IMG/VR virus record: IMGVR_UViG_3300006874_000070
Location: 1-31,777 of that record
Source: a virus
DNA length: 31,777 bases
Strand: one strand, 5' to 3'
Shown here piece by piece: positions 9,337 through 29,448 of this stretch; position 1 is the first letter of the stretch; every line of letters begins with the position of its first letter. The notes under the pieces are model-generated. The model made no database searches and was not told where the DNA came from. It was given only the letters and a program-made list of their open reading frames with translations. Both the position numbers and the translations under genes were made by a program.

Positions 9337-9687
9337 ATGTCAAAACCTATCAACCTAGACTTCGGCAACAAACTCGTTATCTTCGATGGTGACGAAGATT
9401 TGTCGTGGGTCTATGAGATCCAAGAAAACTCAGATAGAAACAAATTGGTCTACGTGGCGAGACGTGGGACAAAGGATAGATATCTCTACCCCGATAGATT
9501 CTTGGTGGAGAATTATGATGTTGACATGGAGGCGCACTTCATGTATAATGATAAGTTCAACGAGGAAGACCGAACCGAATATCTTATCGAAAAGGCCCTA
9601 GCGTTTGTGAACGAGGGTCGAAGACTCTTTATAGAAGACTATGCGTTTAGTAGACCTCTAGAATTTTTTGACTATACTAAACGATAA
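9337..9687 (+). CDS. Hypothetical protein, first gene of nrd operon
   Basis: A 116-residue acidic protein with no recognised motif. It is beta-rich at the start (NKLVIFDGDEDLSWVYEIQE) and aromatic-rich towards the end (LEFFDY). It is led by a strong promoter and a GGAGAA ribosome site, so it should be among the first proteins made. It stands 13 bases before the nrdA start. Confidence 0.6.
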   Translation: MSKPINLDFGNKLVIFDGDEDLSWVYEIQENSDRNKLVYVARRGTKDRYLYPDRFLVENYDVDMEAHFMYNDKFNEEDRTEYLIEKALAFVNEGRRLFIEDYAFSRPLEFFDYTKR

Positions 9688-9700
9688 CTGGACAGAAAAC

Positions 9701-11689
9701 ATGACATTGAAAATTGATAAAAAGAGGGATGACCTACTGGCAGATTATGCAGTAGGTATGTTGAAAGACTTTTACCTTAACAGTTACGAGACATCACCAC
9801 AGGAGGCGTATGGACGAGCAGCTACCGCATGGTCAACCTATAAAGAAGAGTTGGATGAAGAACTGGCCCAACGCCTCTACGATTATGTCAGTAATAAGTG
9901 GTTCATGTTTGCAAGTCCTGTTCTATCTAATGCACCAAACGGTCACGGCAAGGGAAAAGGTATGCCAATATCATGTTTCCTTACTTACGTACCCGACACA
10001 CTTGAAGGTCTTATCGATCATAGTTCTGAGTTGCGTTGGCTTAGTGTCTATGGTGGTGGTGTGGGAGGTCATTGGTCTGATGTCCGAACAGTTTCCGACA
10101 TTGCGCCAGGCCCTATCCCGTTCCTACACACTGTAGATGCGGACATGATTGCGTATCGACAGGGTAAGACTCGTAAGGGTTCTTACGCTGCGTACATGGA
10201 TGTTTCTCATCCGGACATTGTAGAGTTCCTTAACATGCGTATCCCAACGGGAGACGTTCAACGTAAGGCGTTAAACCTACACAACGCAATCAATATCACC
10301 AACGAGTTTATGCAGGCAGTAATGGACAACACTTCGTTTGATCTGCGAGATCCCAAAGACGGTGGTGTCAAAGAGACCATCAATGCACGTAAACTTTGGG
10401 AACGAATTTTAGAAGTGAGGTTCCGTACAGGTGAACCGTACCTCAATTTCATTGATACCGCAAACGATGCACTACCACAAAACCTGAAGGATCTGGGACT
10501 CAAGATTCATGGATCGAATCTTTGTAACGAGATTCACCTACCTACTGGACCGGATCGAACGGCGGTGTGTTGTCTGTCCAGTCTAAACTTGGAGTACTAT
10601 GATGAATGGAAAGATACAACGATTGTGCGTGATCTTGTCACTATGCTTGATAACGTCTTGCAGTACTTTATCGACAGCGCACCCGACACAATCACCCGCG
10701 CAAAGTACAGTGCAGAAAGAGAAAGATCAATCGGACTGGGAGCGATGGGGTTTCACTCTCTGTTACAGAAACACGGTGTGGCTTGGGAATCAGCTCGGGC
10801 AAAGGAAATTAATGAAGTTGTGTTCAACCACATCAAAACAGAAGCCACTACCCAATCCAGACACCTTGCTGGATTGCGAGGTGAATATCCTGACGGAGAG
10901 GGGAGTGGATTGCGATTCGCGCATTTACTTGCCATCGCGCCAAACGCATCTTCCGGAGTTGTACTTTCAACCAGTCCGTCCATTGAGCCCCTGAAGGCGA
11001 ACGCATACACGCATCGAACCCGAGCGGGAAGTTTTTTGGTGAAGAATAAGTATCTTGACAAATTACTTACCGAGCGGGGTATAAATACTGATTCCACTTG
11101 GACATCTATCATCACACAAAAAGGTTCGGTTCAACACCTTCCAGAGTTAACAGAGGGTGAGAAGGCGGTATTCAAGACCGCACAAGAACTTGATCAGAGT
11201 TGGGTTGTCACTCACGCCGCAGACAGACAGAAATATATTTGTCAAGGACAGTCGGTCAACCTATTCTTCCCCGCTGGTGCAGAGAAGTCCTACGTTAACA
11301 AAGTACATCTCAAAGCGTGGAGAGAGGGTCTCAAGGGACTCTACTATCTACGTACCGAAGCGAAGGCTCGTGCAGAGAACGTATCGGAGAAAGTGGAACG
11401 AGTTGCATTGCAAGATGACAGTCGCACCTTGGTGTACGGTAAGAAGAATTGTCCGTTCTGTCAACTTGCGAAAGAAGAACTCAAACTACGGGGAATCCCC
11501 TATGACTATATCGATCTGGAAGAGATCGGTAAGACCGCCGCTGAAGTGACAGGTAGAAAAGTAAAGACTGTCCCTCAAATCTACGTAGAGGGAACGTATG
11601 TCGGTGGGTACGAAGAACTCATTGAATTTCTAGATAATACCACTACAGAAGTTGTTGAAGAAGAAGAGTGCAAGGCTTGCGAGGGATGA
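9701..11689 (+). CDS. nrdA: Ribonucleotide reductase class I alpha subunit fused to glutaredoxin
   Basis: A 662-residue protein read from ATG 9701; a TTG at 9668 would add 11 residues and overlap the previous gene. It reduces ribonucleoside diphosphates to deoxy forms with the NrdB encoded downstream. Seen: PVLSNAPN, active-site C92 (PISCFL), N273-x-C275-x-E277, the partner cysteine at C290 (AVCCLSS) and the radical-transfer pair Y548-Y549. No ATP-cone is present at the N-terminus. From about residue 575 a glutaredoxin domain follows, with CPFC at 584-587, TVPQIYVEG and GGYEEL. After it come a Glu-rich linker and a terminal C657-K-A-C660-E-G, equivalent to the usual NrdA redox tail. The fusion should let the enzyme be reduced within one chain. 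Confidence 0.93.
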   Translation: MTLKIDKKRDDLLADYAVGMLKDFYLNSYETSPQEAYGRAATAWSTYKEELDEELAQRLYDYVSNKWFMFASPVLSNAPNGHGKGKGMPISCFLTYVPDTLEGLIDHSSELRWLSVYGGGVGGHWSDVRTVSDIAPGPIPFLHTVDADMIAYRQGKTRKGSYAAYMDVSHPDIVEFLNMRIPTGDVQRKALNLHNAINITNEFMQAVMDNTSFDLRDPKDGGVKETINARKLWERILEVRFRTGEPYLNFIDTANDALPQNLKDLGLKIHGSNLCNEIHLPTGPDRTAVCCLSSLNLEYYDEWKDTTIVRDLVTMLDNVLQYFIDSAPDTITRAKYSAERERSIGLGAMGFHSLLQKHGVAWESARAKEINEVVFNHIKTEATTQSRHLAGLRGEYPDGEGSGLRFAHLLAIAPNASSGVVLSTSPSIEPLKANAYTHRTRAGSFLVKNKYLDKLLTERGINTDSTWTSIITQKGSVQHLPELTEGEKAVFKTAQELDQSWVVTHAADRQKYICQGQSVNLFFPAGAEKSYVNKVHLKAWREGLKGLYYLRTEAKARAENVSEKVERVALQDDSRTLVYGKKNCPFCQLAKEELKLRGIPYDYIDLEEIGKTAAEVTGRKVKTVPQIYVEGTYVGGYEELIEFLDNTTTEVVEEEECKACEG

Positions 11690-11690
11690 C

Positions 11691-12068
11691 ATGGCATATT
11701 CGGAAAAGGTATTAGACCACTACGAAAACCCACGTAACGTGGGTAAGTTCGACGAAGACGAAGAAGACATTGGTACAGGTATGGTGGGTGCACCCGCTTG
11801 TGGTGATGTCATGAGACTACAGATCAGGGTGAGTGATGAAGGAATTATTGAAGACGCACGGTTTAAAACTTATGGTTGTGGTAGTGCTATCGCTTCTAGT
11901 TCTCTACTCACCGAATGGGTCAAAGGGAAAAATCTTGAAGACGCCGGGCAAATCCGTAATACAGATATCGCAGAAGAACTCGCACTTCCACCCGTAAAAA
12001 TTCATTGTAGTGTTCTTGCAGAAGACGCAATCAAAGCAGCCATCAAAGATTACAAGGAAAAACACTGA
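11691..12068 (+). CDS. iscU: Fe-S cluster assembly scaffold IscU
   Basis: A 125-residue protein starting one base after the nrdA stop. It is the scaffold on which IscS-derived sulfur and iron are assembled into Fe-S clusters. The ligands fall at the same numbers as in E. coli IscU: C37 (APACGD), D39, C63 (YGCGS), H105 and C106. The LPPVK motif bound by the chaperone HscA is intact at 99-103. It overlaps nrdB by one base, so nrdA-grx, iscU and nrdB are one coupled unit. Full retention of functional residues argues for a working auxiliary metabolic gene that relies on host IscS and HscA/HscB. The recipient protein is not known. Confidence 0.93.
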   Translation: MAYSEKVLDHYENPRNVGKFDEDEEDIGTGMVGAPACGDVMRLQIRVSDEGIIEDARFKTYGCGSAIASSSLLTEWVKGKNLEDAGQIRNTDIAEELALPPVKIHCSVLAEDAIKAAIKDYKEKH

Positions 12069-13060
12069 TGTCCCTATTAGAATTTAGTACAACCTACAAA
12101 CCGTTCAAGTATCCTTGGGCGGTAGAACTCTCTAAGAAACATGAAGAGGTTCATTGGATTGAGGATGAGGCGGAACTGTCCGAAGACGTACAGGACTGGA
12201 AGACTAAACTTACCGATGAGGAGAAAGACTTCATCACACACATTCTCAGACTGTTTACTCAGTCGGATGTTCAGGTGGGCGAGAACTACCACGAACTACT
12301 AATCCCTCGTTTTAAAAACAACGAGGTCCGTAACATGTTGTCCTCGTTCGCCGGACGGGAGGCAGTACACCAACGTGCATATGCACTGTTGAACGATACT
12401 CTGGGTCTACCCGACGAAGAGTACCACAAGTTTCTTGAGTTCAAGGAGATGGCAGACAAAGTTGACTTCATGAAAGAAGGTGACGTTAGTACACACACGG
12501 GTCTTGCACTCGCCCTTGCTCAGTCAGTATTCAACGAAGGTATGAGTCTTTTCTCTTCATTCGTGATGTTGTTGAACTTTCAACGATTCGGAAAGATGAA
12601 GGGTATGGGTACAATCGTGGAATGGTCGATACGTGATGAAACACTTCACGTGCAAGGGAATGCAAAACTGTTTCGTACATTCTGTGAGGAACATCCTCGC
12701 ATCGTGAACGATGAACTTAAATCCAAAATCTATGAGATGGCAAAAAATGCAGTTGAACTGGAAGACAAATTTATCAACCTTGCGTTCCGTGGTAACGATG
12801 TACAGGGACTCACTAAGACTGAAGTTAGGAAGTATATTCGTCATATCGCTGATAGGCGTTTACTTCAACTGGGTCTCAAACCAAAATTTAGACAGAAGGA
12901 TAATCCCCTCACCTGGCTTGACTGGGTGCTTAACGGTGCATCCCATGACAACTTCTTCGAAAAAAGAGTTACCGAATACAGTGTTGTTGGGATGGCAGGA
13001 AGTTGGGGATGGGAGGAAAGTCCCGTTGTGTGCGACATTAGCGAGAATGTCGCTGCATGA
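12068..13060 (+). CDS. nrdB: Ribonucleotide reductase class I beta subunit
   Basis: A 330-residue ferritin-like radical-generating subunit. The six metal ligands can be placed: D67 (TQSDVQ), E98 and H101 (REAVHQ), E157 (FNEGMS), E191 and H194 (RDETLH). The radical tyrosine fits Y105, four residues after H101 as in E. coli Y122. It is thus a standard tyrosyl-radical type rather than a Tyr-lacking class Ic type; the metal (Fe or Mn) cannot be told. It partners the NrdA encoded upstream. The stop overlaps the following small gene by one base. Confidence 0.93.
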   Translation: MSLLEFSTTYKPFKYPWAVELSKKHEEVHWIEDEAELSEDVQDWKTKLTDEEKDFITHILRLFTQSDVQVGENYHELLIPRFKNNEVRNMLSSFAGREAVHQRAYALLNDTLGLPDEEYHKFLEFKEMADKVDFMKEGDVSTHTGLALALAQSVFNEGMSLFSSFVMLLNFQRFGKMKGMGTIVEWSIRDETLHVQGNAKLFRTFCEEHPRIVNDELKSKIYEMAKNAVELEDKFINLAFRGNDVQGLTKTEVRKYIRHIADRRLLQLGLKPKFRQKDNPLTWLDWVLNGASHDNFFEKRVTEYSVVGMAGSWGWEESPVVCDISENVAA

Positions 13061-13222: not shown

Positions 13223-13630
13223 ATGTGGATTTATAACGGAACGCCTTACGAACCAGATGAAGACGAACTCAGTCAGTGGGTTGGGTTCGTCTATCTGATC
13301 ACTGAACGTGACACCAACAAGAAGTATGTTGGTAAGAAGTTCTTTTGGTCTACTCGAAAATTGCCTCCTCTTAAGGGACAAAAAAGGAAGAGGATCAAAA
13401 AGGTTCAGTCCGACTGGAGAGACTACTACGGATCATCCGAAGAACTAAAACTTCTAGTCGAAACGAAAGGTGGGGACGCCTACCATCGTCAAATTTTGAG
13501 GTTGTGCAAATCGAAAGGTGAGTGTTCCTACTATGAGGCGAAAGAACAATTTGATCGTGATGTTCTGTTGCGAGAGGATTACTACAATGCGTTCATTGGT
13601 TGTAAGATACATGCGAAACATATCCAATGA
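13223..13630 (+). CDS. GIY-YIG-like endonuclease (Seg-like)
   Basis: A 135-residue protein. VGFVYLITERDTNKKYVGKK (from about residue 20) is the GIY-YIG hallmark in variant form (VYL...KYVG). An Arg-rich segment follows, and SYYEAKEQF near residue 110 supplies the likely catalytic Glu. It resembles small Seg-like putative homing endonucleases that I recall beside nucleotide-metabolism genes in cyanophages. No separate DNA-binding domain is seen, so it may be a nuclease used in phage DNA metabolism rather than a mobile element. It overlaps the next gene by four bases. Confidence 0.7.
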   Translation: MWIYNGTPYEPDEDELSQWVGFVYLITERDTNKKYVGKKFFWSTRKLPPLKGQKRKRIKKVQSDWRDYYGSSEELKLLVETKGGDAYHRQILRLCKSKGECSYYEAKEQFDRDVLLREDYYNAFIGCKIHAKHIQ

Positions 13631-14832
13631 TTGTTGATCGAAATATAATCAACCCCGATATTATTTACGATGGTAAGACCAAGAATGAACTCATTCGAGA
13701 CATCGACGGTTGGAAGAGACTACTCGTAGACACGCATAGTTTGAAAAAGGGCGACATGGTTGCGGTGTCAATCATGAACGTAAGTACGAGACACGTGTCG
13801 GCCGTGTTCGCTTGTGCAGAACTAGGATTACGGTTGATCCTACTTGATTCCCCCGCACACAAAGAATCTTTACCGTACACCAAGATTGCAAGGTTTGGTC
13901 CAGCGGACCTAACTATCACCGATGGTATTGGTGAAAAATTGTACAAGGGGTTGCACGGTGATATGATCCACCACAATTCCAAAAAGGTCGTTCATGAACT
14001 TGATATGGAACCAAGTCCGGATCCATACTTCCCTTGGTACGCCGAAGAGTCGGATCCCTTTTTAGTATCCAGTACTTCGGGAACGACACAGTACTCTCGC
14101 AAGATAGAGTTCACTCATGAAGACTGTATGGTCTTCGCACTTCGAAACATTCACATATTCAAGTTCCACCCTAGTTCAGTTTGTTGGCACACCAAGAACA
14201 TGCACCATGCATCTTCTATGTTGACAGACCTTCTACCCTCTGTGATGGCCAGTAATCGTCACTGGAGTTACTCTCTGCCAGACAGGAAAGAATGGTTACC
14301 ACTCACCAAGAATGAGGCCATAACCTTCATAGAGGACCGTGGCATCAATCGGTGTATCGTACCTAACCGTGACATCCTAGATTGGTTGATAAGAGGACAC
14401 ACCTTCAAAAAACGCTTGACAATTAACATGTCTGGGTTTACAATGGATAAAGACTATGGGGACATGTGTGCAATGCATAATCTCAGGTTCATATCCCACT
14501 ACGGTTCTATAGACACCGCTATCCCCGCACTGGTGAACTATGTGGATGAAACCTATGATGAGGATGAGAATTGTCTGGGTGTCCTAGCGGATACGCAATT
14601 TATGGTTGGGGTCAATCCCGAACACGCATATGTAATCCACCAGAGATGGAAAGAATCCCGTCAACTGGGTGACAGACTCGAATATCGAAATGGGAAGTAT
14701 TATCATTTGGGTAGAATCGAGAACATCAAACTGCCTGAGGGCATCGATCTAGAACCCTTTTACCAAGATACCAAGGTAAACATGGACCAACTGAGGGGGT
14801 ACATGTGGGAAAAATTTTCAAAAATAATTTAA
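13627..14832 (+). CDS. AMP-binding (ANL superfamily) enzyme lacking most of its C-terminal domain
   Basis: A 401-residue adenylate-forming enzyme. Core motifs are visible: the phosphate loop SSTSGTT at 148-154, followed by QYSRK in place of the usual GxPKG; HYGSIDTAIP at 291-300 in place of YGxTE; GDRLEYRNGKYYHLGR at 348-363, matching the TGD/GR region. Only about 33 residues follow, so most of the mobile C-terminal domain with its catalytic Lys is missing. Such enzymes activate carboxylates as acyl-AMP; the truncated form may stop at adenylation or hand on to another protein. It is coupled to the GIY-YIG-like gene and closes the nrd operon. The substrate is unknown. Confidence 0.78.
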   Translation: MIVDRNIINPDIIYDGKTKNELIRDIDGWKRLLVDTHSLKKGDMVAVSIMNVSTRHVSAVFACAELGLRLILLDSPAHKESLPYTKIARFGPADLTITDGIGEKLYKGLHGDMIHHNSKKVVHELDMEPSPDPYFPWYAEESDPFLVSSTSGTTQYSRKIEFTHEDCMVFALRNIHIFKFHPSSVCWHTKNMHHASSMLTDLLPSVMASNRHWSYSLPDRKEWLPLTKNEAITFIEDRGINRCIVPNRDILDWLIRGHTFKKRLTINMSGFTMDKDYGDMCAMHNLRFISHYGSIDTAIPALVNYVDETYDEDENCLGVLADTQFMVGVNPEHAYVIHQRWKESRQLGDRLEYRNGKYYHLGRIENIKLPEGIDLEPFYQDTKVNMDQLRGYMWEKFSKII

Positions 14833-18993: not shown

Positions 18994-19143
18994 ATGGCGA
19001 AGTTCAGTCGGCATGACACTAGAAACAAAAAACGTAACAGACATAAGAATCTAACCAAGAGTGGATTCGTGGGAAAGATGCATCATGACTTCAGGCGAAA
19101 ACCCAAATACAAATCTGATATTTCAGTATCTAGTTATAAATGA
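18994..19143 (+). CDS. 49-residue very basic protein
   Basis: A short ORF with GGGGTG 5-10 bases before its ATG. The product has about 17 Lys/Arg and 5 His and begins MAKFSRHDTRNKKRNRHKNL. I recall comparable tiny basic proteins in cyanophages. Its last 59 bases overlap the start of the glycosyltransferase in another frame. A weak TATAAAGG (18979-18986) upstream is not a proper late promoter. Confidence 0.6.
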   Translation: MAKFSRHDTRNKKRNRHKNLTKSGFVGKMHHDFRRKPKYKSDISVSSYK

Positions 19144-19942
19144 TGACCTAGACGAAAAACGGGGAGATATCCAAGGTAGATCACGATCACAACTGTATCG
19201 TGAGATGGCAGATATCTCCCGCGAGTCATTTGAGATTTACGCCAAAACTGTTGGCGCTGATTACCTTTACTCTGATGAAGCGGTGTTCACCAAAGAAGAA
19301 TATGTACGGGACACTACCGTGTGTCTGTTCGAGTGTCTTCGAGTAATCTACGATGAGTCGTTCGACAAGTATGACAAGGTTCTCTTTGTCGATACTGACA
19401 TTGTAGCGAACACCGAACGAAACATCTTCGAAGAGGCTGATGGTGAAGTCTCTGGTGTACTAGAGTCTGATATTCGAACTGCTAACGGTGGTGGATATAA
19501 TGCATGGGACCACAAGGAATCTACTCTTCGAGATTACGTAGAGAAGTATGAGTGGCATGACGTACCCATAGTACCCGCCTTCGGAGTAATCCCTTCCAAA
19601 CTAACAATCATGAATACCGGAGTAGTTGTCTGGACACGCGAGGCGCGTATACGTGCGCGAGAGGTCTTTGACGATTGGAAGTGGTGGTTCTTTGAGGGTC
19701 CGGTTAAACACATGTCAATCATGAATGATCAACCTTATATCTCAGGCCAACTGGTGAAACACGATTTCGATATCGGTTGTATGGATCAGTTCTGGAACGA
19801 CACACCAACACACTACTCCGATCCTTGGGGTGAGGAAGCCATGTCTGCTGGGTTTCTTCACTACACTGGTGGCGAGAATAAGATCGTCATGGTGGACGGT
19901 TACAGGGAAAAAAAGTTTCCTATTTTTGAAAAAAGTTCTTGA
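19085..19942 (+). CDS. GT-A fold glycosyltransferase
   Basis: A 285-residue enzyme from ATG 19085; a GTG at 19061 would lengthen it by 8 residues. The metal/sugar-nucleotide DxD motif is D103-T-D105 in VLFVDTDIV. IMNTGVVVWTREAR and the His near the end (FLHYTGGENK) fit GT8-like enzymes. It transfers a sugar from a nucleotide sugar to an unknown acceptor. Its stop codon lies inside the -35 box of the promoter at 19939. It opens the glycan/modification block. Confidence 0.78.
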   Translation: MTSGENPNTNLIFQYLVINDDLDEKRGDIQGRSRSQLYREMADISRESFEIYAKTVGADYLYSDEAVFTKEEYVRDTTVCLFECLRVIYDESFDKYDKVLFVDTDIVANTERNIFEEADGEVSGVLESDIRTANGGGYNAWDHKESTLRDYVEKYEWHDVPIVPAFGVIPSKLTIMNTGVVVWTREARIRAREVFDDWKWWFFEGPVKHMSIMNDQPYISGQLVKHDFDIGCMDQFWNDTPTHYSDPWGEEAMSAGFLHYTGGENKIVMVDGYREKKFPIFEKSS

Positions 19943-19967
19943 CATTTCTTGCCTGATCAGTTATAGT
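19939..19967 (+). promoter_or_regulatory. Early-type sigma-70 promoter, family A copy 3
   Basis: TTGACA at 19939-19944 and TATAGT at 19962-19967 are separated by 17 bases. The spacer starts TTTCTTGCC and a T5-G-A6 UP-like tract sits upstream, as in the copies at 14841 and 15303. The tract overlaps the end of the glycosyltransferase gene. It drives the HAD, carbamoyltransferase and cupin genes. Confidence 0.82.
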
Positions 19968-19989
19968 GTAACTGAATTAAGGAACTGTT

Positions 19990-20571
19990 ATGAAAACAGA
20001 TTATGAAAAAGTGATTCTGACTGATGTTGATGGAGTACTCCTTAACTGGGGTTACGCCTTCGATATCTGGATGAATCAACATGGTTATGAAATGAAAAAT
20101 CGGGATGTCTATGACATCGCTCAGTGTTACGGTATCTCTAAAACTAAGGGTAAGGAACTGGTAAAACACTTCAATGAGAGTGCGGCGATTGGTTTCATTC
20201 CCCCTCTCAGGGACGCAATCCACTACGTGAGAAAGTTACACGAAGAACACGGATATGTGTTTCACGCAATTACCAGTCTGAGTCTTGATCCCCACGCTGC
20301 AAAGTTGCGGGAGATGAATCTCGCAAAGTTGTTTGGTGAGACTGCGTTTGAAAAGGTTGTCTGCCTCGATACTGGTGCGGACAAAGACGAAGAACTTGTG
20401 AAGTACAAGGATACTGGTTTCGTCTGGATTGAAGACAAAATCGAGAATGCCCATGTAGGAGATAAATTCGGTCTAGATAGTATCGTCATGGAACATGGTT
20501 ACAATATGAACGACTACACGTTTCCTCTGATGAAAAACTGGAAAGAGGTATATGAATACCTAGAGGGTTGA
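19990..20571 (+). CDS. HAD-superfamily phosphatase / 5'-nucleotidase-like
   Basis: A 193-residue protein. LTDVDGVLLNW at 10-20 gives the nucleophile D12 and acid D14 of HAD phosphatases. ITSLS supplies motif II, and FVWIEDKIENA the acidic motif IV. Length and motifs resemble deoxyribonucleotidase-like HADs. Standing immediately before a carbamoyltransferase, it may dephosphorylate a sugar or nucleoside intermediate. It is led by its own promoter. Confidence 0.75.
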   Translation: MKTDYEKVILTDVDGVLLNWGYAFDIWMNQHGYEMKNRDVYDIAQCYGISKTKGKELVKHFNESAAIGFIPPLRDAIHYVRKLHEEHGYVFHAITSLSLDPHAAKLREMNLAKLFGETAFEKVVCLDTGADKDEELVKYKDTGFVWIEDKIENAHVGDKFGLDSIVMEHGYNMNDYTFPLMKNWKEVYEYLEG

Positions 20572-22068
20572 ATGAGATACATAGGATTCTCTGAGTTCTA
20601 TCATGATGCGGGAGTCAGTGTCATCGAAGAAGATGGCACTGTCTCCTATGCAACACATGCAGAACGATGGTCTAAGAAAAAGAATGATGCGATAATCCCA
20701 CCTGAGTTGTGGGATTTTGTAGGCCAAGAAAAAGGTGATGTGGTCACCTTTTATGAGGACCACCACATCAAGTATAACGTTCGTGGTGGTTTGGCGGTAG
20801 AACCTAAGTTAGACAATTACAAAAAAGAACTCCATTACCACCACAAGATCCCTGTGTATGAGTCTCTTGTGTATGACAAGAAAGAACTACATCACACATC
20901 CCATTGTGCGGGTGCATTCTATACACGCCCTTGGCAGTCAATAGAAGATACCGTAATGGTGTCGATTGATGGTGCTGGAGAAGTCCAGACTGGGGTCATC
21001 CTAGATCACAACTTCAATCTAATCAAAGAGTGGCACTACCCTAAGTCCGTTGGGTTAATCTATGCAATGGTCACTGAGTTTCTTGGTCTGAGACCTCTAG
21101 AGGACGAATACGTGGTCATGGGATTATCATCCTATGGTGAACCCGTATTCGCCGACTGGTTGTACGAACAATATCACAAGTTCTCTGATATCGCAAAGGA
21201 GATAGAAGAGGGTACTCTCATTGGGGTCAGTCATTCGGATAGAGAGAAACGAAGAAAGGTTTTCCGTAAGGAACTAAAATGGAAGTGTTACAACAACAAG
21301 GACCAAGACTCCGCTGCATCTGTACAGGAGTTTGCGGAACGTGCAATCCTTGAGATCATGCGTGAGGCGCGTAAACACGGATCTAAGTTAGTCTACTCTG
21401 GTGGATGTGCACAGAACGTTGTTACGAACTCTAAGATCGCAGAATTGTTTGATGAGGTTCACATTGCAATCGCTCCCGCAGACTCAGGGTCTTCTCTGGG
21501 GTGCGCCGCAAAAACGTGGGCGGATGAGACCGGAGGAACTCATCTTCGTTGGAACCCTTACTTAGGAACCAACATTGACCGTGAGATTAACCCGTCCGAT
21601 GTTGTTGACCACTTATTGTCAGAACAATACTGTGGTATCGCAAACGGTAGATCAGAGTTTGGTCCACGTGCACTGGGTAACAGATCCTTGATTGCAGACG
21701 TTCGGTTTGATGTCAAGGATACGGTCAACGCAATCAAACGGAGACAGAAGTATCGTCCATTTGCTCCTGCGATTCTCGAAGAGTATGCGGACCAATATTT
21801 CTCTGGTCCGATGAATGAGTACATGCAATTTACCAGTAAGGCATTACATGACTACAAGTCGGTGACCCATGTAGATGGAACCGCAAGGGTACAGGTTGTC
21901 CGTAAGGATTGTCAATCTATATTCCGTAAAATTATTGAAGAGTACTATGAACGCACTGGTGTCCCTATGCTCTTGAATACTAGTCTTAACGTTAGGGGTA
22001 GACCTATGGTCGATGATCTTCGAGACGCTAAGATTTGGGAAAGTACATATAACGTAAGGGTATTTTAA
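20572..22068 (+). CDS. NodU/CmcH-family carbamoyltransferase
   Basis: A 498-residue enzyme that transfers a carbamoyl group from carbamoyl phosphate, via carbamoyl-AMP, to a hydroxyl of a sugar or antibiotic-like molecule. Conserved features: YHDAGVSVI at 10-18, HHTSHCAGAFYTRPW (His cluster), VSIDGAGE, YSGGCAQNVVTNSKI, and in the C-terminal domain NGRSEFGPRALGNRSL and YRPFAPAIL. Length is slightly below the family's usual 550-600. It abuts the HAD gene with no gap. The acceptor is not known. Confidence 0.88.
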   Translation: MRYIGFSEFYHDAGVSVIEEDGTVSYATHAERWSKKKNDAIIPPELWDFVGQEKGDVVTFYEDHHIKYNVRGGLAVEPKLDNYKKELHYHHKIPVYESLVYDKKELHHTSHCAGAFYTRPWQSIEDTVMVSIDGAGEVQTGVILDHNFNLIKEWHYPKSVGLIYAMVTEFLGLRPLEDEYVVMGLSSYGEPVFADWLYEQYHKFSDIAKEIEEGTLIGVSHSDREKRRKVFRKELKWKCYNNKDQDSAASVQEFAERAILEIMREARKHGSKLVYSGGCAQNVVTNSKIAELFDEVHIAIAPADSGSSLGCAAKTWADETGGTHLRWNPYLGTNIDREINPSDVVDHLLSEQYCGIANGRSEFGPRALGNRSLIADVRFDVKDTVNAIKRRQKYRPFAPAILEEYADQYFSGPMNEYMQFTSKALHDYKSVTHVDGTARVQVVRKDCQSIFRKIIEEYYERTGVPMLLNTSLNVRGRPMVDDLRDAKIWESTYNVRVF

Positions 22069-22069
22069 T

Positions 22070-22417
22070 ATGAAGGCAGGTAAAGTTTGGGGTCAGACGG
22101 AACTGATCGAAGCGAACGGTGTACTAGAGTTTCATCGTATCGAAATGAAGAAGGGTGGTGTGTGTTCCAAACACAAACACAAGTATAAGTGGAACGGGTT
22201 CTTCTGTGAGTCCGGAGAACTACTCATTCGAGTGTGGAAGAACGCATATGATCTTGTTGATGAAACAATTCTCAAGCCCGGACAGTATACCAAGGTTGCG
22301 CCAGGCGAGTTTCACCAGTTCGAATGTTTGAAGGATGGTGTCGCCTATGAATTGTACTGGGCGGAGTTCAACCATGATGATATTGAAAGAGAGTCCGTAG
22401 GGTTCCAACAGGTATAA
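22070..22417 (+). CDS. Cupin-domain protein 1
   Basis: A 115-residue single-domain cupin. HKHKYKWNGFFCESGELLIRV and the C-terminal motif PGEFHQFE give the expected metal-binding His/Glu set. Such proteins include sugar-phosphate isomerases and epimerase-like enzymes. It is one base after the carbamoyltransferase stop, so a joint role on the same sugar is likely. Confidence 0.75.
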   Translation: MKAGKVWGQTELIEANGVLEFHRIEMKKGGVCSKHKHKYKWNGFFCESGELLIRVWKNAYDLVDETILKPGQYTKVAPGEFHQFECLKDGVAYELYWAEFNHDDIERESVGFQQV

Positions 22418-22423
22418 AATATT

Positions 22424-22747
22424 ATGAAATTCAAAAGTTCAAGTATTGAAGGAACGGTTGTAAAAAATGATGATCGTTACATTGTAAAGGATAACACAAC
22501 ACTAAAAAATCTTGTTGTTAGTTCAACAAGATTAAATCCACGCAAAAGCACAAGTGGACACAAGCACGAAGGACAGGAAGAAGTTTACATGTTTCTTGAA
22601 GGCAGTGGCACTATGGAACTGGATGATGTAACTCATAATGTTGAAGCAGGCGACACTGTGTTAATTGAGGACGGTGTGTTTCATCGTGTTCATGCAGGCA
22701 ATGAAGAATTGTATTTTGTATGCGTGTTTGATGGAAGTAGAAAGTAA
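22424..22747 (+). CDS. Cupin-domain protein 2, compositionally distinct
   Basis: A 107-residue cupin. GHKHEGQEEVYMFLEGSGTM and the C-terminal AGDTVLIEDGVFHRV give two His and a Glu for metal, then a third His. It resembles mannose-6-phosphate-isomerase-like cupins. The gene is more AT-rich than its neighbours and its Gly codons are mostly GGC/GGA (8 of 9), whereas the adjacent cupin favours GGT. Lys is largely AAA. This suggests recent transfer into the block. Confidence 0.76.
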   Translation: MKFKSSSIEGTVVKNDDRYIVKDNTTLKNLVVSSTRLNPRKSTSGHKHEGQEEVYMFLEGSGTMELDDVTHNVEAGDTVLIEDGVFHRVHAGNEELYFVCVFDGSRK

Positions 22748-22759
22748 CGAGACAAACGG

Positions 22760-22767
22760 TATAAATA
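22760..22767 (+). promoter_or_regulatory. T4-type late promoter (TATAAATA)
   Basis: A perfect TATAAATA octamer in the 50-base gap before the EF-hand membrane protein, 30 bases before its ATG. It shows that this gene is switched on late, separately from the early-type promoter at 19939. Confidence 0.72.
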
Positions 22768-22797
22768 CTTCCGACAATAACAATAAGAGAGGTAACC

Positions 22798-23136
22798 ATG
22801 TCGGAAGAAAAACAAACCTTAACTGTCGATAAGGACAGTGATCTCAGTACAGCAGATTTGAATGGTGATGGTCACATCTCTAATGAAGAGTTGTCGATGC
22901 ACCTTGAGTTCAAGAGAAGAGAACTCGAAGACAAAGACGCACAGAGAGACGCCATTCGTAAGATGGCTTGGTTCTCCCTGTTCGGACTTTTAGTCTATCC
23001 GTTAGGTATTGTAATCACTGCGGTTCTGGGTCTAGAAAAGGCTGCCGAACTTATTGCAGATATTGCACCTACCTACTTTGCATCGATTGCGGTTCTGGTG
23101 GCAGCGTTCTTCGGAGCAGACGCCTACAAGAAATAG
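22798..23136 (+). CDS. EF-hand membrane protein, holin-like topology
   Basis: A 112-residue protein. A canonical EF-hand loop spans D20 to E31 (DLNGDGHISNEE, with D20, N22, D24, G25, I27 and E31). An amphipathic charged helix follows, then two transmembrane segments at about 52-75 and 88-109. I recall this family in marine T4-like phages, without function. Two membrane helices and a late promoter make it a candidate holin or lysis regulator that might respond to calcium; this is inference. Confidence 0.7.
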   Translation: MSEEKQTLTVDKDSDLSTADLNGDGHISNEELSMHLEFKRRELEDKDAQRDAIRKMAWFSLFGLLVYPLGIVITAVLGLEKAAELIADIAPTYFASIAVLVAAFFGADAYKK

Positions 23137-23151
23137 ATAAGTACCTTTATT

Positions 23152-24018
23152 ATGAGAAAAGTTTCGTGGAGAGGTACGCCAGGCGTTGGAGATTTTATGT
23201 GGGCACTTAACTGTGCACACAACTACTCCTATGAATTCAAAGAAACAGTAGACCTCACCTTCCATTGGGAACACGGTGAGGACTACCTTCATCACTTCGA
23301 AGATCCCGAAACCATAATCGAAAGACTCGAATACATTCACAACTTCTATCACCGGAAAGAGGATGTGGTGGTAAACCACGTCTTCAACTCAACAGATCCC
23401 ATGTACTCCTCTTGGAAATTTTCTGATGATGTGATCCAGAAAGATGGTGAACACAAACCAACCATAGTCGCCAAGGGGACAGAGAAAAAACGGTTCTGGT
23501 TCGAAGACGGTTGGTTTAATGACGAGAAGGGGAGGACACTACCCTACAACGACTGGGCGTTCAGACAAGACAGTTTTCTCCCAAAAGACGATAACAAGAT
23601 AGTTGTCTGGACTCCTATCCTAAATGCAGAAACACCAAGAACTTGGAAAAGACTCTTGCCAAACCGTGAATGGTATGGTATAATAAATCTACTTCGCCGC
23701 TCAGGGTTCAATGTAGTAGAGTTGTCTTATCGTACTCCGGTAAGAGAGGCGATGTACCATATCTCTAACTGTAGACTAGTGTTCTGTTATGATGGTATGT
23801 GGCATTACATTGCAAGGAACTTCTTTAAACCCATGATTGTGATGAGTGATCAGGGTGTGACTACATACCACACCCCTCAGGCTCAGAAGTTATCTCCGAA
23901 TAAGGACGATAAGAGAAAGAATATATACGAGATGAAAAAGAACATGAACGAGTTTCTGGGTCTTCCGAAGAAGAGGGCCGTTGAATTTCAGAAAGCGATG
24001 CAGTGGATCTATGACTGA
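23152..24018 (+). CDS. GT-B-like glycosyltransferase (heptosyltransferase-related)
   Basis: A 288-residue protein. The N-terminus WRGTPGVGDFMWALN fits the Gly-rich loop of GT9 heptosyltransferase-like enzymes. The C-terminal part, ISNCRLVFCYDGMWHYIARN then FFKPMIVMS, fits their nucleotide-sugar-binding motif (D-G..H..A). It probably transfers a sugar to a glycan or lipid core. It overlaps the radical SAM gene by eight bases. Confidence 0.66.
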   Translation: MRKVSWRGTPGVGDFMWALNCAHNYSYEFKETVDLTFHWEHGEDYLHHFEDPETIIERLEYIHNFYHRKEDVVVNHVFNSTDPMYSSWKFSDDVIQKDGEHKPTIVAKGTEKKRFWFEDGWFNDEKGRTLPYNDWAFRQDSFLPKDDNKIVVWTPILNAETPRTWKRLLPNREWYGIINLLRRSGFNVVELSYRTPVREAMYHISNCRLVFCYDGMWHYIARNFFKPMIVMSDQGVTTYHTPQAQKLSPNKDDKRKNIYEMKKNMNEFLGLPKKRAVEFQKAMQWIYD

Positions 24019-24994
24019 TATTAAAATAGACAGAGCGGTTATTGAGGTTCAGGGTGCCTGTAACTTTGACTGTACCATGTGTCCCCAAGACAAACGTGCG
24101 GGAGGTAGACACAAGGGGTTCCTAACCAAGATGAGTCTTCTAGAGTTTGAAGACAACGTGTATGACTGTGTACAACACGGACTTCGAGTAGTGAACCTAG
24201 ATGGTTCTGGTGAGGCGACGATTAATCGTAACCTACCCGAATACATCAAGATCGTTAAGAAGTATAACGCACAGGCGATTATCTTCTCGAACGGTTTTCG
24301 TATGCGTGGTCAGTTCATGAGAGATTGCGTAGACGCTGGTCTCGATTTCTTTCGGTTCTCTTTCATTGGACCAACACCCGAACTCTACGATAAGTGGATG
24401 CACAACACACGGGGAAGTTCATACGAACTGATCAAACAAAACGTCAAAGAGATGAAGGAGTACGTCGATCAAACTGGTAGCGGTTGTGTTGTGGAGACCT
24501 ATCACTTGATCACAGACAACGATAACCTAGAATGGGAACTAGATAAGTACAAAGAACTAGTCGAAGAACTTGGTGTCAAAACAGAAATTTGGAAGATGCA
24601 TAACTGGTCTGGTGCTTGGGACATTGGAAAGAATGCACGAAAAGGTGAGGTAAAAACTTGTGGAAGGCCTTTTAGTCCTGACGTTGTTATCCGTGCTGGC
24701 GGTCTTGATGGTCAACGGGGTGCTGTTCATCCTTGTTGCCAAGTCCTTGGTAGAGACGAAGAAGCCGTCCTTGGACACACCAGTCAAAACACAATCGAAG
24801 AGATTATTCGGGGAGAAGAGTACTCTGCGTTGAGACAGGCTCATCGTACTGGAGACTATCCCGATTACTGTAAGTCCTGTGATTTCTTATTAGATGATCC
24901 AGAGGTGCTCGTGTATACAAATCACGATAGAGACCTATACAAGATGATCGGGACTGAATTTGATCTAAACGACTATCGGGAGGTAGTAGAATGA
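24011..24994 (+). CDS. Radical SAM enzyme with SPASM-like C-terminal cysteines
   Basis: A 327-residue protein from ATG 24011, overlapping the previous stop by 8 bases; a start at 23981 is possible but would overlap more. C17-x3-C21-x2-C24 (ACNFDCTMCPQ) binds the SAM [4Fe-4S] cluster. GEATIN and IIFSNGF are typical barrel motifs. A SPASM-like set follows: C217, C242-C243, C287 and C290. Such enzymes modify peptides, sugars or nucleosides by radical chemistry. It lies between two glycosyltransferases. Confidence 0.86.
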   Translation: MTDIKIDRAVIEVQGACNFDCTMCPQDKRAGGRHKGFLTKMSLLEFEDNVYDCVQHGLRVVNLDGSGEATINRNLPEYIKIVKKYNAQAIIFSNGFRMRGQFMRDCVDAGLDFFRFSFIGPTPELYDKWMHNTRGSSYELIKQNVKEMKEYVDQTGSGCVVETYHLITDNDNLEWELDKYKELVEELGVKTEIWKMHNWSGAWDIGKNARKGEVKTCGRPFSPDVVIRAGGLDGQRGAVHPCCQVLGRDEEAVLGHTSQNTIEEIIRGEEYSALRQAHRTGDYPDYCKSCDFLLDDPEVLVYTNHDRDLYKMIGTEFDLNDYREVVE

Positions 24995-25221
24995 AATCAA
25001 TAGTTAAGTGGTTTAAAGATTTGTTTTTAGAAGAGTTTGAGGTCACTATCTGGTTCAAGGGTGGTACAGAATACAGTCCGTCAGAGTTTAAACGGGACTG
25101 GCGTATGAAGAAGATCATTACCAAGAAACAAACTCACTTTGTTGGTATTGATATTGACGGTAACATGGTTGAAATCAAAACAACAACCCCATTTGATTAT
25201 AGGATTAGGAAGATACATTGA
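24991..25221 (+). CDS. Hypothetical protein between radical SAM and glycosyltransferase genes
   Basis: A 76-residue protein. It starts with an amphipathic helix (IVKWFKDLFLEEF), then beta strands (VTIWFKGGTEY, HFVGIDIDGNMVEIK). It has the look of a small beta-sheet phage protein, without a recognised family. Its four-base overlap with the radical SAM gene and TTGA overlap with the next show coupling. Confidence 0.55.
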   Translation: MKSIVKWFKDLFLEEFEVTIWFKGGTEYSPSEFKRDWRMKKIITKKQTHFVGIDIDGNMVEIKTTTPFDYRIRKIH

Positions 25222-26003
25222 GACGTTTAATATATCAGGTAGCGGTAGGTAAACCCTCTCAACTTTACGAACACTGTATTAAGAGTGTCTCGAACTACTG
25301 TAAGTATCATGGAATTGGTCACATAGTACAGAGACAACCGATATTTCGTATTGCTCCCGATCCCTTTAACATGGGTCGATCCCGCGAGTCCTTCGAGAAG
25401 TACGGTGGTTACCTACCTATCTTTGAGAAAGAGGTTGCGTTCAATTATCTGGATGAGTATGACCAGATCGCAATCGTGGATGCTGACATCTACATCCGTC
25501 CTAACTCCCCCAATATCTTCGAAGACTTTGGGACAGACAGGGCGTTCGGTGCGGTCATCGAACGGGAGATGCCTATCAGGAGTTGGTACATCGACAAGAT
25601 AATCAACTACTCTCGTATGCAGTACGGACAACTCCACAACAACAAAGTTGATTTCAAACCAACAGCGGCAGGGTTCGAGTATGCGAACATGGGGTTGATC
25701 CTACTCAACAGTGAGAAGTTTAAACCTTTCCTCAAGGGGCAGACAGGTAAACAGTTTCTCGAACGTGCAGAGTTCAAGAACTTTGTTGATGGTGTGGGCC
25801 CTTGGAAGTGGAGTACAGATCAAACACTACTAAACTACTTTGTTAAGAAGTACAACGTTCCTTTCAGGAAAATGCACTGGAAGTGGAACGGTCTATACAC
25901 CGCAAATGACAAGATAGAAGATTGTCACTTCGTCCATTTCTTCCTGAAGGATAAACTACCTAATCAGGGAGAGGATGTTGTGGAATTGATGAATCGGATA
26001 TGA
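25218..26003 (+). CDS. GT-A fold glycosyltransferase
   Basis: A 261-residue protein. The start is a TTG overlapping the previous stop (TTGA), with AGGAAG a few bases upstream; the first residues would be MRRLIYQVAVG. The DxD motif is D88-A-D90 in IAIVDADIYI. ANMGLILLNSEKF and WSTDQTLLNYFV fit GT8-like sugar transferases. It differs from the enzyme at 19085 but shares the fold. The acceptor is unknown. Confidence 0.75.
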   Translation: MRRLIYQVAVGKPSQLYEHCIKSVSNYCKYHGIGHIVQRQPIFRIAPDPFNMGRSRESFEKYGGYLPIFEKEVAFNYLDEYDQIAIVDADIYIRPNSPNIFEDFGTDRAFGAVIEREMPIRSWYIDKIINYSRMQYGQLHNNKVDFKPTAAGFEYANMGLILLNSEKFKPFLKGQTGKQFLERAEFKNFVDGVGPWKWSTDQTLLNYFVKKYNVPFRKMHWKWNGLYTANDKIEDCHFVHFFLKDKLPNQGEDVVELMNRI

Positions 26004-26794
26004 AACCCAAAGTAGCGATGGGGTTGTGTTACCCTTCGGGTTCGGGTGGCATGTTCCTTACGGAATTGATCTACCCAACCACGGATGATAAGTCCGGTAA
26101 GTACGAGACTAATCCAGGCTGTAACCGTTCCGTATCTCACAATGAGTATGGTGGTGCACAAGAGTGTGTCTTCGTTGATAACACCGATGGACCCCTTGAG
26201 GCGAACGAGAAGTCTATCCTTGTTGCGAAGTTAAATATCCACAAGTATCTACCGTTCTATGACTGTCCGATTACATATCAGATAGATGTACAGGACGATG
26301 AGTCCTACGCATTTACGCAAGAACTCTTCTTCTTAAAAAAATACCTTGGGGGGTATCCTCAGTACGAAGAAGAGTTTAAGGACGTATTCCAAGAGTCTGG
26401 ACTGTCTGAACTGTTGTCTGAATTCAAGAGTATACATCCCTATTCAAAGATCGCCACGGATCTCTATCGAATGTACCTAGAAGTAGGTCAGATAAACAGA
26501 GATATGGTGTTGAGTCAATGCAGAACAATTTATTCAGAATACCTTGACAGGGGACAAAAATCAAGGTATAATAAGAAAGAACGTTGGGACAGGGATACTA
26601 ATATTGATCGTAGTGCGTTGTATGATCCAGAAGAGATAAAGAAGCACACGCACCTAGAGGTGATCAGTTATGCCGATCTGTTTCTAAACGGTAAACAGAC
26701 TTGGACAATCTGGGATAGTTACCTAGAGGAGATAGGAGAGTACACAGAAAGAAACTGGAGACTCATCGAACAGTTTGAGGACGAATTCTTATAA
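26000..26794 (+). CDS. P-loop protein, possibly sulfotransferase-related
   Basis: A 264-residue protein. GLCYPSGSGGMFLTEL (8-23) resembles the nucleotide/PAPS-binding loop of sulfotransferase-like proteins, and the C-terminal region EVISYADLFLNGKQTW looks like the late region of that family. There is no clear R..P 3'-phosphate motif, so the call is tentative. A consensus sigma-70 promoter lies within its last third. It overlaps the GT gene by four bases. Confidence 0.5.
   Translation: MKPKVAMGLCYPSGSGGMFLTELIYPTTDDKSGKYETNPGCNRSVSHNEYGGAQECVFVDNTDGPLEANEKSILVAKLNIHKYLPFYDCPITYQIDVQDDESYAFTQELFFLKKYLGGYPQYEEEFKDVFQESGLSELLSEFKSIHPYSKIATDLYRMYLEVGQINRDMVLSQCRTIYSEYLDRGQKSRYNKKERWDRDTNIDRSALYDPEEIKKHTHLEVISYADLFLNGKQTWTIWDSYLEEIGEYTERNWRLIEQFEDEFL
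26539..26572 (+). promoter_or_regulatory. Consensus sigma-70 promoter within a 9-base inverted repeat, internal to a CDS
   Basis: TTGACA (26544-26549) and TATAAT (26567-26572) are both perfect with 17 bases between. They are overlaid by the arms ATACCTTGA (26539-26547) and TCAAGGTAT (26561-26569). The -35 box lies in the left arm and the start of the -10 in the right. It is inside the 26000-26794 gene and could drive the ferritin-like gene at 26845. The repeat may be an operator. Confidence 0.55.
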
Positions 26795-26797
26795 ATA
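26790..26797 (+). promoter_or_regulatory. T4-type late promoter (TATAAATA)
   Basis: A perfect TATAAATA octamer spanning the stop codon of the preceding gene, 47 bases before the ATG at 26845. Together with the consensus sigma-70 element some 220 bases upstream, it gives the ferritin-like gene possible early and late expression. Confidence 0.65.
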
Positions 26798-26844
26798 AAG
26801 AAGGTGAACATCTATATTAAAAGAGTGATTAACAGGAGAACCTT

Positions 26845-27543
26845 ATGTTAGAACCACAAGAGTTTGTGAAGAAAATTCGCAACGAAAACCAAGCCCTCTT
26901 CGAGGCGTCTAAGATGAATGTCAAGGCGTACTTCGAAGGTGACCTTTCCGAAGAGGAAATGGTCGATCACTTCATTGGTCGCATGGTCAATGAACGTATG
27001 AACATGTCTGAGATTTCTATGCAGATTGCAAATGCAGCGGATGACGCAGACCCCAAAGAATTAGAACTTCTTTCTAAACAAGCCGCAGACGAGGCGAAAC
27101 ACTATCGCATGGTCAAGGAAGTTATCGAACACATCTCTGGTGAGGAGATCGATGCAGCCTCTGCAATCCGCAAGGAACGTGAGATGGATACCGCAAAGGG
27201 TGCGACTCTGTTAGAGAAGTATGGTGCAGAGAATGACGAAGCAGTTCTCGCCGCGTATCAGTTGGTTGCGGAAGGACGTGCGGAAGCAGTCTGGAACCAG
27301 ATGGCAGACACCATCGAAGACTCATTCATTTCAAGTCGTTATCGTGAGATCGCAAAGGACGAAGGTTTCCACAGTGCAATCGGTGGATACAAACTACGCA
27401 AGGTTGCAACAGACGAAGAGACACAGAACCGTGTCCAACGTGTTGTTGAAGGTATGCGTAAAGACCTTTTTGAAATCTCGTGTGCAAACACAGTTGAAGC
27501 GACTGGATCACGTGAACTCGTAAACGAAGCTTACGGTTGGTAA
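26845..27543 (+). CDS. Ferritin-like di-iron protein
   Basis: A 232-residue helical protein with two ExxH motifs, E83-x-x-H86 (ADEAKHY) and E173-x-x-H176 (KDEGFHS). Further Glu residues on the other helices (E50 or E56; E143 or E147) complete a four-helix di-iron site. Possible roles are oxygenase, oxidase or iron storage; the family cannot be settled by eye. AGGAGA precedes the ATG. Codon use is strongly biased to preferred codons (GCA, GAA, CGT), suggesting high expression. A late promoter leads it. Confidence 0.72.
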   Translation: MLEPQEFVKKIRNENQALFEASKMNVKAYFEGDLSEEEMVDHFIGRMVNERMNMSEISMQIANAADDADPKELELLSKQAADEAKHYRMVKEVIEHISGEEIDAASAIRKEREMDTAKGATLLEKYGAENDEAVLAAYQLVAEGRAEAVWNQMADTIEDSFISSRYREIAKDEGFHSAIGGYKLRKVATDEETQNRVQRVVEGMRKDLFEISCANTVEATGSRELVNEAYGW

Positions 27544-27546
27544 ATC

Positions 27547-28110
27547 ATGAAAATTGGACTCACTCAACGAGTCCTCACGTTTCCTAACACTGGAATAGTT
27601 CATGACGCTTTAGAACATGGTTGGTACAAGTTCCTAAAGGGTCATGAACTCATTCCTATCCCAAATCGTGAAGACTTAGATTATGAAACCCTCTCAGACG
27701 AATTGGATCTACTCATCATAACAGGTGGGCGGAACGACGATATTCGTATCATCACAGAAGTAGGGATCGCCACAGAGATGGTGACCGAAGGTAAACCCGT
27801 ACTTGGTATTTGTCACGGGGCGTTTCTACTCACCTCAATTCTGGGTGGATACGTCGAAGGTGATAAAATTAAGGAACAACACTACATAACAGAACACAAC
27901 GTTTTTTATGATGGAAGACCTTACTGGGTCAATAGTTATCACGATATCTGGATTGCAGAACCACCGCCCGGATCTGTAGTACTTGCAACTGATCCAGAGG
28001 GAGACTGTGAATCGTGGTATAAAAACAACATTGGTGCGATAGTATGGCATCCAGAAAGAATGGAGAAACCCTTCATTCCGACAGAGATTTTAGAGGTGAC
28101 AGGATTATGA
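27547..28110 (+). CDS. Class I glutamine amidotransferase-like protein
   Basis: A 187-residue protein of the class I GATase fold. The nucleophile elbow is GICHG with C89; the catalytic His-Glu pair is H168-P-E170 (WHPERM). TGGRND forms the oxyanion loop. It splits glutamine to supply ammonia, or hydrolyses a gamma-glutamyl bond (peptidase C26 type). No fused synthetase domain is present, so a partner is needed for amide synthesis. It overlaps the next gene by four bases. Confidence 0.82.
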   Translation: MKIGLTQRVLTFPNTGIVHDALEHGWYKFLKGHELIPIPNREDLDYETLSDELDLLIITGGRNDDIRIITEVGIATEMVTEGKPVLGICHGAFLLTSILGGYVEGDKIKEQHYITEHNVFYDGRPYWVNSYHDIWIAEPPPGSVVLATDPEGDCESWYKNNIGAIVWHPERMEKPFIPTEILEVTGL

Positions 28111-28799
28111 AGAACAACATGTTCCATCTCCATCACGGTGAAACGTTTCAGGTAAACGATATCTGGAGATATGACGTTCAGGTGTGGAAAGGACAATACG
28201 AAGAAGTGTCGGAAGGTTGGCAGGACCATAACAGTTATGTGATGGGCAAGTCTTGCAACTTTCGAAGTAACAACAGTGGGTGGAGTATCAAAGACTCGAA
28301 CTTCGCCGCTTCGGTGAACTCAGGGTTTCAGGCAGAAACACTGGATGAGGACTCCACACTAGTCAACATCAAATACTATGGACTTGGGATGAACGACGAA
28401 CGTTTGTTTGTACCCAACGCCCGTGGTGTAACAGGTAATCTATCCTACATGGATGGTGGTACTAACACCACCGCAGTCAATCCGGGCCGATTAGGACTTC
28501 CGGTCATCAACTACGTGCACTTCCCCAAAGGAATGCAACAAACACTCCATACTCACCCAAGTCAACGTATCGGTCTTATCCTCAGTGGATCCGGTCAGAT
28601 CGAACTTGACAACAACGAAGTGTTCCCCATTAACAGGGGTGACGTTTGGGTTATGGAAAGAAACGTTCTACATAATTTTATGTGTAACAAAGGTGAAGAC
28701 GTAACCCTTTTCGTGTTTGCGCCTGACTCTGGTACAGGCCCAACAGATGAAGTTAACCCATTGAAGGTACGTACCTATGTCGGACAACAACGAGTATAA
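28107..28799 (+). CDS. Cupin-domain protein 3
   Basis: A 230-residue protein from ATG 28107, overlapping the previous stop (ATGA). The C-terminal half is a cupin: HTHPSQRIGLILSGSGQIEL then INRGDVWVMERNVLHNFM, with two His in HTH and a later His as likely metal ligands. The N-terminal half (MFHLHHGETFQVNDIW) is unique and aromatic-rich. A role as isomerase, dioxygenase or sensor cannot be told. It overlaps the following P-loop gene by 23 bases. Confidence 0.68.
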   Translation: MKNNMFHLHHGETFQVNDIWRYDVQVWKGQYEEVSEGWQDHNSYVMGKSCNFRSNNSGWSIKDSNFAASVNSGFQAETLDEDSTLVNIKYYGLGMNDERLFVPNARGVTGNLSYMDGGTNTTAVNPGRLGLPVINYVHFPKGMQQTLHTHPSQRIGLILSGSGQIELDNNEVFPINRGDVWVMERNVLHNFMCNKGEDVTLFVFAPDSGTGPTDEVNPLKVRTYVGQQRV

Positions 28800-29448
28800 C
28801 CGAAACAGACCAATCGGAAAACACATTCTATTGGTCACAGGCCCACAGGGTTCTGGTAATCACTTATTCAGTAAAATCCTTGGTCTCAGCGAACATGTCT
28901 ATGGTTGGGACTTTGGAGAGAAGTATTGGATTCCGAGTGATGAGGAACCCTTTGCAGAATGTTGGGTCAATCCGGAACTGACCGTTCCTACCCTAGAGAA
29001 GATCAAAGAGGACTACGTTGTCGCAAACGTCAGTGTCCCATTTGTCTTTGACGGAGAGAAACGAATTCCCGCCATTCAGGAGTTCGTTGATGAAGCCAAG
29101 AGTGCGGGTCATAGAGTAACTGTTTGTATCGTCTCTCGTGACCGTAACATCAACTGTCTTCAACAGGAAAGGGTAAGGGACGAAATAACCCTACCTACTG
29201 CGATGGCGTACTATCGTTGTCTTGATTGCGACTTTGCGTTTCTATCCCACGAAACTTTATACCTACATAAAGGTATGTACTTAAAGTATTTGTCGAGGAC
29301 TCTAGGATTTCCTATTGACTACGACAACCCAAGAGTGTATGATATACTGGTAGAAGATCAGAATAACAAATATGTAAAATATGTTGAGGAGCACTGGTTA
29401 GATAATGAAGTCTGGAAAGGTCTTAGACCCAAGTCTGAAAGAAAATAG
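28777..29448 (+). CDS. P-loop NTPase / sulfotransferase-like protein
   Basis: A 223-residue protein. LLVTGPQGSGNHLFSKIL (18-35) is a P-loop of the type in PAPS-dependent sulfotransferases and kinases; GSGNHL is close to the 5'-phosphosulfate loop. VTVCIVSRDRNINCLQQERV may be the region binding the 3'-phosphate. I recall similar proteins in cyanophages. It overlaps both neighbours. Confidence 0.58.
   Translation: MSDNNEYNRNRPIGKHILLVTGPQGSGNHLFSKILGLSEHVYGWDFGEKYWIPSDEEPFAECWVNPELTVPTLEKIKEDYVVANVSVPFVFDGEKRIPAIQEFVDEAKSAGHRVTVCIVSRDRNINCLQQERVRDEITLPTAMAYYRCLDCDFAFLSHETLYLHKGMYLKYLSRTLGFPIDYDNPRVYDILVEDQNNKYVKYVEEHWLDNEVWKGLRPKSERK

Follow-up and report, generated by a model that had tools for sequence, protein, structure and literature searches.

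Enzymes of the ANL superfamily, or class I adenylate-forming enzymes (acyl-CoA synthetases, NRPS adenylation domains, and luciferases), are textbook examples of domain alternation. A mobile C-terminal domain of approximately 100 residues (AMP-binding_C) is a usual feature of these enzymes and rotates about 140 degrees between the two half-reactions. In the domains that activate amino acids (NRPS-type), an Asp in motif A4 contacts the alpha-amino group of the substrate. In GrsA, K517 of motif A10 serves adenylation, and K434 and R439 of motif A8 serve the thiolation state, for which the C-subdomain turns by 140 degrees (PMC11253843). FadD23 from which the entire C-domain has been removed is almost inactive (PMC9989471). 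McbA is an ANL enzyme that forms amides directly (PMC6282839).

We analysed a window of 31,777 nucleotides, by which we mean the whole stretch of DNA, whose source is an aquatic T4-like phage. One ORF with an ATG start, the product of which we call P0001, encodes a real ANL adenylating enzyme that is a maintained and structurally unusual member of this known superfamily. The gene is the last in a row with the order nrdA, iscU-like, nrdB, SegE-like, and ANL (Table 1), and its start overlaps the stop of the SegE-like gene by 4 bases (ATGA). The ORFs on its 3' side are small and unrelated, and scans for promoters and terminators around the gene gave chance-level results only. In the part of this row at window 9668-13060, nrdA appears to be fused to a C-terminal glutaredoxin-like segment, and an IscU/NifU-like gene (11652-12068) lies between nrdA and nrdB.

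Table 1. Coordinates of the ANL gene, its motifs, and context genes (window positions unless another contig is named)
Feature	Position	Strand	Evidence
nrdB, ribonucleotide reductase small chain (context)	12068..13060	+	PF00268, E 7.4e-75
SegE-like GIY-YIG endonuclease gene	13223..13630	+	PF19835, E 7.7e-38
ANL adenylating enzyme P0001, 401 aa	13627..14832	+	PF00501; profile match to the 17-member clade of phage ANLs; AlphaFold2 model; PDB ANL matches
P-loop (A3) TSGTTQYSRKIEFTH, residues 150-164, Arg158 in the canonical Lys column	14074..14118	+	Alignments, motif table
A5 motif SHYGSIDT, residues 290-297, Asp296 replacing the usual Glu	14494..14517	+	Alignment of 26 ANLs, motif table
A7 Asp349 and A8 hinge GR362-363, residues 348-365	14668..14721	+	26 ANLs: D349 invariant, R363 nearly invariant
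19-residue tether, residues 364-382, in place of the C-terminal domain body (59-97 elsewhere)	14716..14772	+	Motif table
A10 motif DTKVNMDQLR, residues 381-390, putative adenylation Lys383	14767..14796	+	Ends of full-length homologues (DTKINMDQLR, L095); hhalign with canonical GKxxR
TctC-type genes directly beside the ANL gene, three phage lineages	L069 4878-5828; L079 1400-2326; L077 contig 9949-10056

The initial annotation had called the product a phage-encoded ANL adenylation enzyme, and a Pfam match, the predicted fold, and the core motifs all bear this out. PF00501 matched P0001 with 29.6 bits (E = 4e-7), just below its curated cut-off of 29.9, and scored about equally with both of the 72-73% identical relatives. 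The NCBIfam matches were weak, collinear, and all to ANL models. No PHROGs family was matched by P0001; PHROG 36676 matches only the other viral ANLs that we tested. An AlphaFold2 model built from an alignment of 26 sequences had a pLDDT of 88.5 and a pTM of 0.88 and showed the large N-terminal domain fold of ANL enzymes, and an alignment of the three close relatives only gave a pLDDT of 35. The larger alignment included ordinary ANLs, so the model is supportive and is not independent evidence.

Comparison of this model with solved structures placed FACL13, oxalyl-CoA synthetase, MenE, EntE, and NRPS A-domains at the top. The Z scores were 32.2 over 340 residues for the FACL13 N-domain, 31.8 for oxalyl-CoA synthetase, and 31.4 for EntE, and the Foldseek E value for MenE was 2e-18. 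Stand-alone acyl-CoA/acyl-AMP ligases (MenE, FACL13, the FadD family, and oxalyl-CoA synthetase) are like P0001 in fold (residues 1-365), in their ATP-binding motifs, and in an acyl/aryl-type A4 motif without the amino-acid Asp. By contrast, P0001 is only 12-16% identical to them, has an Arg in the P-loop, has the body of the C-domain deleted, and has no AMP-binding_C match. Among predicted viral structures the best matches were ANL proteins of uncultured Caudovirales. One of these 'AMP-dependent synthetase/ligase' proteins (BFVD A0A6J5L571, 442 aa) is a phage-borne ANL fold that matched P0001 with a Foldseek E of 7e-21, but its identity over the structural alignment is 16%.

The core motifs of acyl-AMP-forming enzymes reported from the first reading of the sequence were found: A3 (TSGTT...TH, 150-164), A5 (HYGSID, 291-296), A7 (D349), and the A8 hinge (GR, 362-363). 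An alignment of 26 ANLs shows no variation at T150-SGTT, T163, H164, G293, and D349, and almost none at R363 and K383. We also looked for loss of the ATP-binding residues across homologues and found them retained, with Arg in the A3 Lys column of P0001. The altered context of the P-loop Lys (QYSRK) noted at the outset is real and, in addition, variable. In the segment TSGTTQYSRK, R158 occupies the canonical Lys column and K159 comes next; the corresponding pair is KK in L008 and RM in L009. The column holds K in L094, L095, L085, L073, and others as well; K prevails in the full-length clade, where L097-L099 have T. Thus, the residue at this position drifts across the family. Asp in A5 also occurs in the full-length relatives L095, L085, and L097. 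In the A4 region (MHHAS), Ala195 falls in the column of the amino-acid-activating Asp, a placement of moderate certainty in the 26-sequence alignment. Because this region is without the typical Asp, the sequence suggests that the substrate is a non-alpha-amino carboxylic acid.

The C-terminal domain had been described as nearly absent. The body of the domain is indeed deleted, but the deletion is internal and the terminal A10 segment with Lys383 is retained. The window protein has 19 residues between hinge Arg363 and the A10 Lys, and L008 and L009 have 21 each, compared with 59 in L095, 70 in L085 and L073, and 74-97 in all others. The deletion is therefore common to P0001-P0003, and the nearest full-length relatives keep the body. 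The proteins end in LDKETFTVDTKINMDQLREYL (full-length L095) and IDLEPFYQDTKVNMDQLRGYM (window), of which the A10 part, DTKxNMDQLR, is nearly identical; motif A10 thus forms the extreme end of the window protein, QDTKVNMDQLR. Both the wide alignment and a profile-profile comparison place the end segment of full-length members at A10 (GKxxR) of ordinary ANLs, so we take K383 as the A10 lysine, which would dock in the active site. The short Arg363-Lys spacing and the retained A10 end show that the domain body was lost by an internal deletion that kept the catalytic tip.

Profile comparison with hhalign gave a 428-column alignment of the full-length phage clade with ordinary ANLs (E 1.3e-24) that reaches the A10 segment. 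For the window clade, the alignment with the full-length clade (E 4e-71) stops at the hinge, and the match of the P0001 tail rests on MAFFT and on near-identity with L095. PF13193 did not match P0001 and also did not match the full-length clade members; thus, the length of the spacer, and not PF13193, is the evidence for domain loss. No conserved A8 Lys/Arg is recognisable after GR363 in P0001-P0003, which accordingly lack both the A8 thiolation residues and the CoA-binding C-domain of acyl-CoA synthetases. The close homologue L094 is truncated by the end of its contig and cannot date the deletion. An assembly error or frameshift was ruled out, since the identical protein occurs in seven other contigs and the same deletion in L008 and L009. 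The lost domain is also not encoded downstream, where the next ORFs are unrelated.

With the A10 lysine kept and the A8 residues and the rotating domain gone, the simplest reading is that the enzyme is held in an adenylation-like state and passes acyl-AMP directly to a nucleophile. We consider it somewhat probable that P0001 is a functional adenylation-only ligase that makes acyl-AMP and transfers the acyl group directly onto an acceptor, with no domain alternation to CoA or a carrier protein. The enzyme would bind ATP-Mg together with a carboxylic acid of the non-alpha-amino kind and form an acyl-adenylate, with K383 on its roughly 20-residue tether still reaching the active site. The 140-degree alternation to the thiolation state (CoA or carrier protein) is probably lost, because the body of the C-domain and a recognisable A8 Lys/Arg are missing. 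The acyl-AMP would then go straight to an acceptor with an amine or hydroxyl group, as in ANLs of the amide bond synthetase type. We infer this mechanism, along with catalytic activity, docking of K383, and the substrate class. The likeness to McbA, where the acid is adenylated and an amine then attacks without CoA, would be one of mechanism only. More tentatively, P0001 may be a natural minimal ANL in which all that is left of the C-terminal domain is a short tether with the A10 lysine; it would then be a single-state, adenylation-only ligase with a phage- or host-specific acceptor. The NRPS A-domain core construct LgrA F-A-delta-sub and the FadD23 N-domain are likewise cores without most of the C-subdomain, but these were truncated in the laboratory and lack the A10 Lys, whereas the deletion in P0001 is natural and internal and keeps it.

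The near-inactivity of FadD23 without its C-domain cuts both ways: it indicates that the retained A10 Lys matters, and it also counts against the adenylation-only ligase, since a 20-residue tether might not suffice. Also counting against it are the Arg in the P-loop Lys column, the pLDDT of only 71-76 for the tail (residues 361-400) of a model whose alignment held ordinary ANLs, the hhalign match that stops at the hinge, and the lack of any linked gene for an acceptor or substrate. P0001 could use host carrier proteins or CoA. It would then be an ordinary acyl-CoA/acyl-carrier ligase whose short tail still allows thioester formation with host CoA or ACP, that is, a metabolic cargo gene. Acyl-CoA synthetases are among the top structural matches, and carboxylate-binding TctC genes adjoin the ANL gene in L069/L075, L077 (partial, at the contig end), and L079, which fits uptake and activation of a carboxylate. 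We nevertheless think this unlikely because the window clade lacks the domain body and A8 residues of the thiolation state, there is no TctC on the window phage contigs, and no carrier-protein (PP-binding) domain was found on eight family contigs, where controls were positive. Two contigs, both large (262 and 345 kb), have three TctC genes each.

If the adenylation-only reading is true, this natural enzyme, with the adenylation lysine and without the rotating domain, would directly test which half-reaction needs that domain. It would also be a possible compact scaffold for amide synthesis.

We also asked how the gene is distributed and maintained. Close relatives in IMG/VR are few: the seven contigs with the identical protein, plus L008 and L009. 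Further ANLs on viral contigs were gathered by motif scans of IMG/VR, and another such scan added L097-L099. A profile built from these three proteins (P0001 and those of L008 and L009) matched L094 (E 1.5e-123) and L095 (7e-89), as well as L085, L073/L086, L077, L076, L069/L075, L070/L082, and more distant ANLs. A maximum-likelihood tree built from 26 sequences, which has several long branches and a midpoint root, groups 17 phage ANLs in a single clade (100/100); the window clade and L094 together are nested inside it (100/99). This clade comprises about 20 loci in IMG/VR. A tblastn search of described phages (50,697 records) gave zero matches for P0001, P0003, and L076, and one insignificant match each for L095 and L091; the few 'phage' matches of P0004 and P0005 are probably bacterial contamination in draft records. 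Such enzymes had been thought unusual in phages, which holds for the described phages searched but not for uncultured ones, given the 17-sequence clade. P0001 marks a family of adenylating enzymes that is unannotated and scattered among aquatic T4-like phages, and this phage-borne, carboxylate-activating ANL family is little known. The part of the literature covered held no paper on such phage enzymes or on a natural C-domain deletion that keeps A10. Motif scans of genome contigs found no cellular homologue, with patterns so narrow that this is not evidence of absence. More phage-contig ANLs, of the ordinary type, occur in L064 (1084-2169), L035, L044, and L056; the one in L064 has a shortened N-terminal part and an intact C-domain.

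Between L008 and L009, dN was 0.038 and dS 0.57. The resulting ratio of about 0.07 is in the range of the neighbouring nrdB and segE; against the window, dS is saturated. This ratio indicates that the ANL gene is maintained under strong purifying selection. It bears on whether P0001 is catalytically dead, or a decoy without turnover whose ligand is ATP, an acid, or a host enzyme or other protein, as the change of the P-loop Lys to Arg, the Asp in place of Glu in A5, and the large C-domain deletion might suggest. However, the conserved catalytic residues together with the low dN/dS speak against gene decay. The core that binds ATP was kept, as was the A10 Lys, although the surrounding domain was lost. 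Moreover, L008 combines a P-loop Lys with the same deletion, and the A5 Asp is shared with full-length relatives. A dead enzyme or decoy is decidedly unlikely on these data.

The suggestion that P0001 feeds an acyl or aminoacyl group into a downstream sugar/modification pathway is not supported by comparison of gene neighbourhoods, and we regard it as highly improbable. The window does carry a modification cluster starting at 19061, with carbamoyltransferase, cupin, radical SAM, glycosyl- and methyltransferase genes at 19-31 kb, and a weak link comes from L073/L086, where a homologue (53%) of the 19990-20571 gene of the window is found two genes past the ANL gene. However, the ANL gene belongs to a separate row that ends 4 kb before the first glycosyltransferase gene. 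L094 has the same nrd-SegE context with a PP-loop-like gene between SegE and ANL, and in L069/L075, L076, L077, L087, L090, L092, and L097/L098 the ANL gene adjoins genes read as T4 gp47/gp46. A constant partner gene was ruled out; the neighbours, including TctC, differ by lineage.

Some of these neighbourhoods hold other genes of note. The dense cargo cluster of the window (19061-31195) includes GT8-like, carbamoyltransferase, radical SAM/SPASM, class-I glutamine amidotransferase-like, and methyltransferase genes and three cupins. The L094 gene (1040-1657, - strand), absent from the window, reads as PP-loop ATPase-like from its sequence (SSGVES, CGKCAKC); its only Pfam match was a weak one to DUF6395. 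In L085, a TET/JBP-type oxygenase gene (1577-2914, + strand; PF12851, E 8e-24) lies beside an ANL gene of the phage clade.
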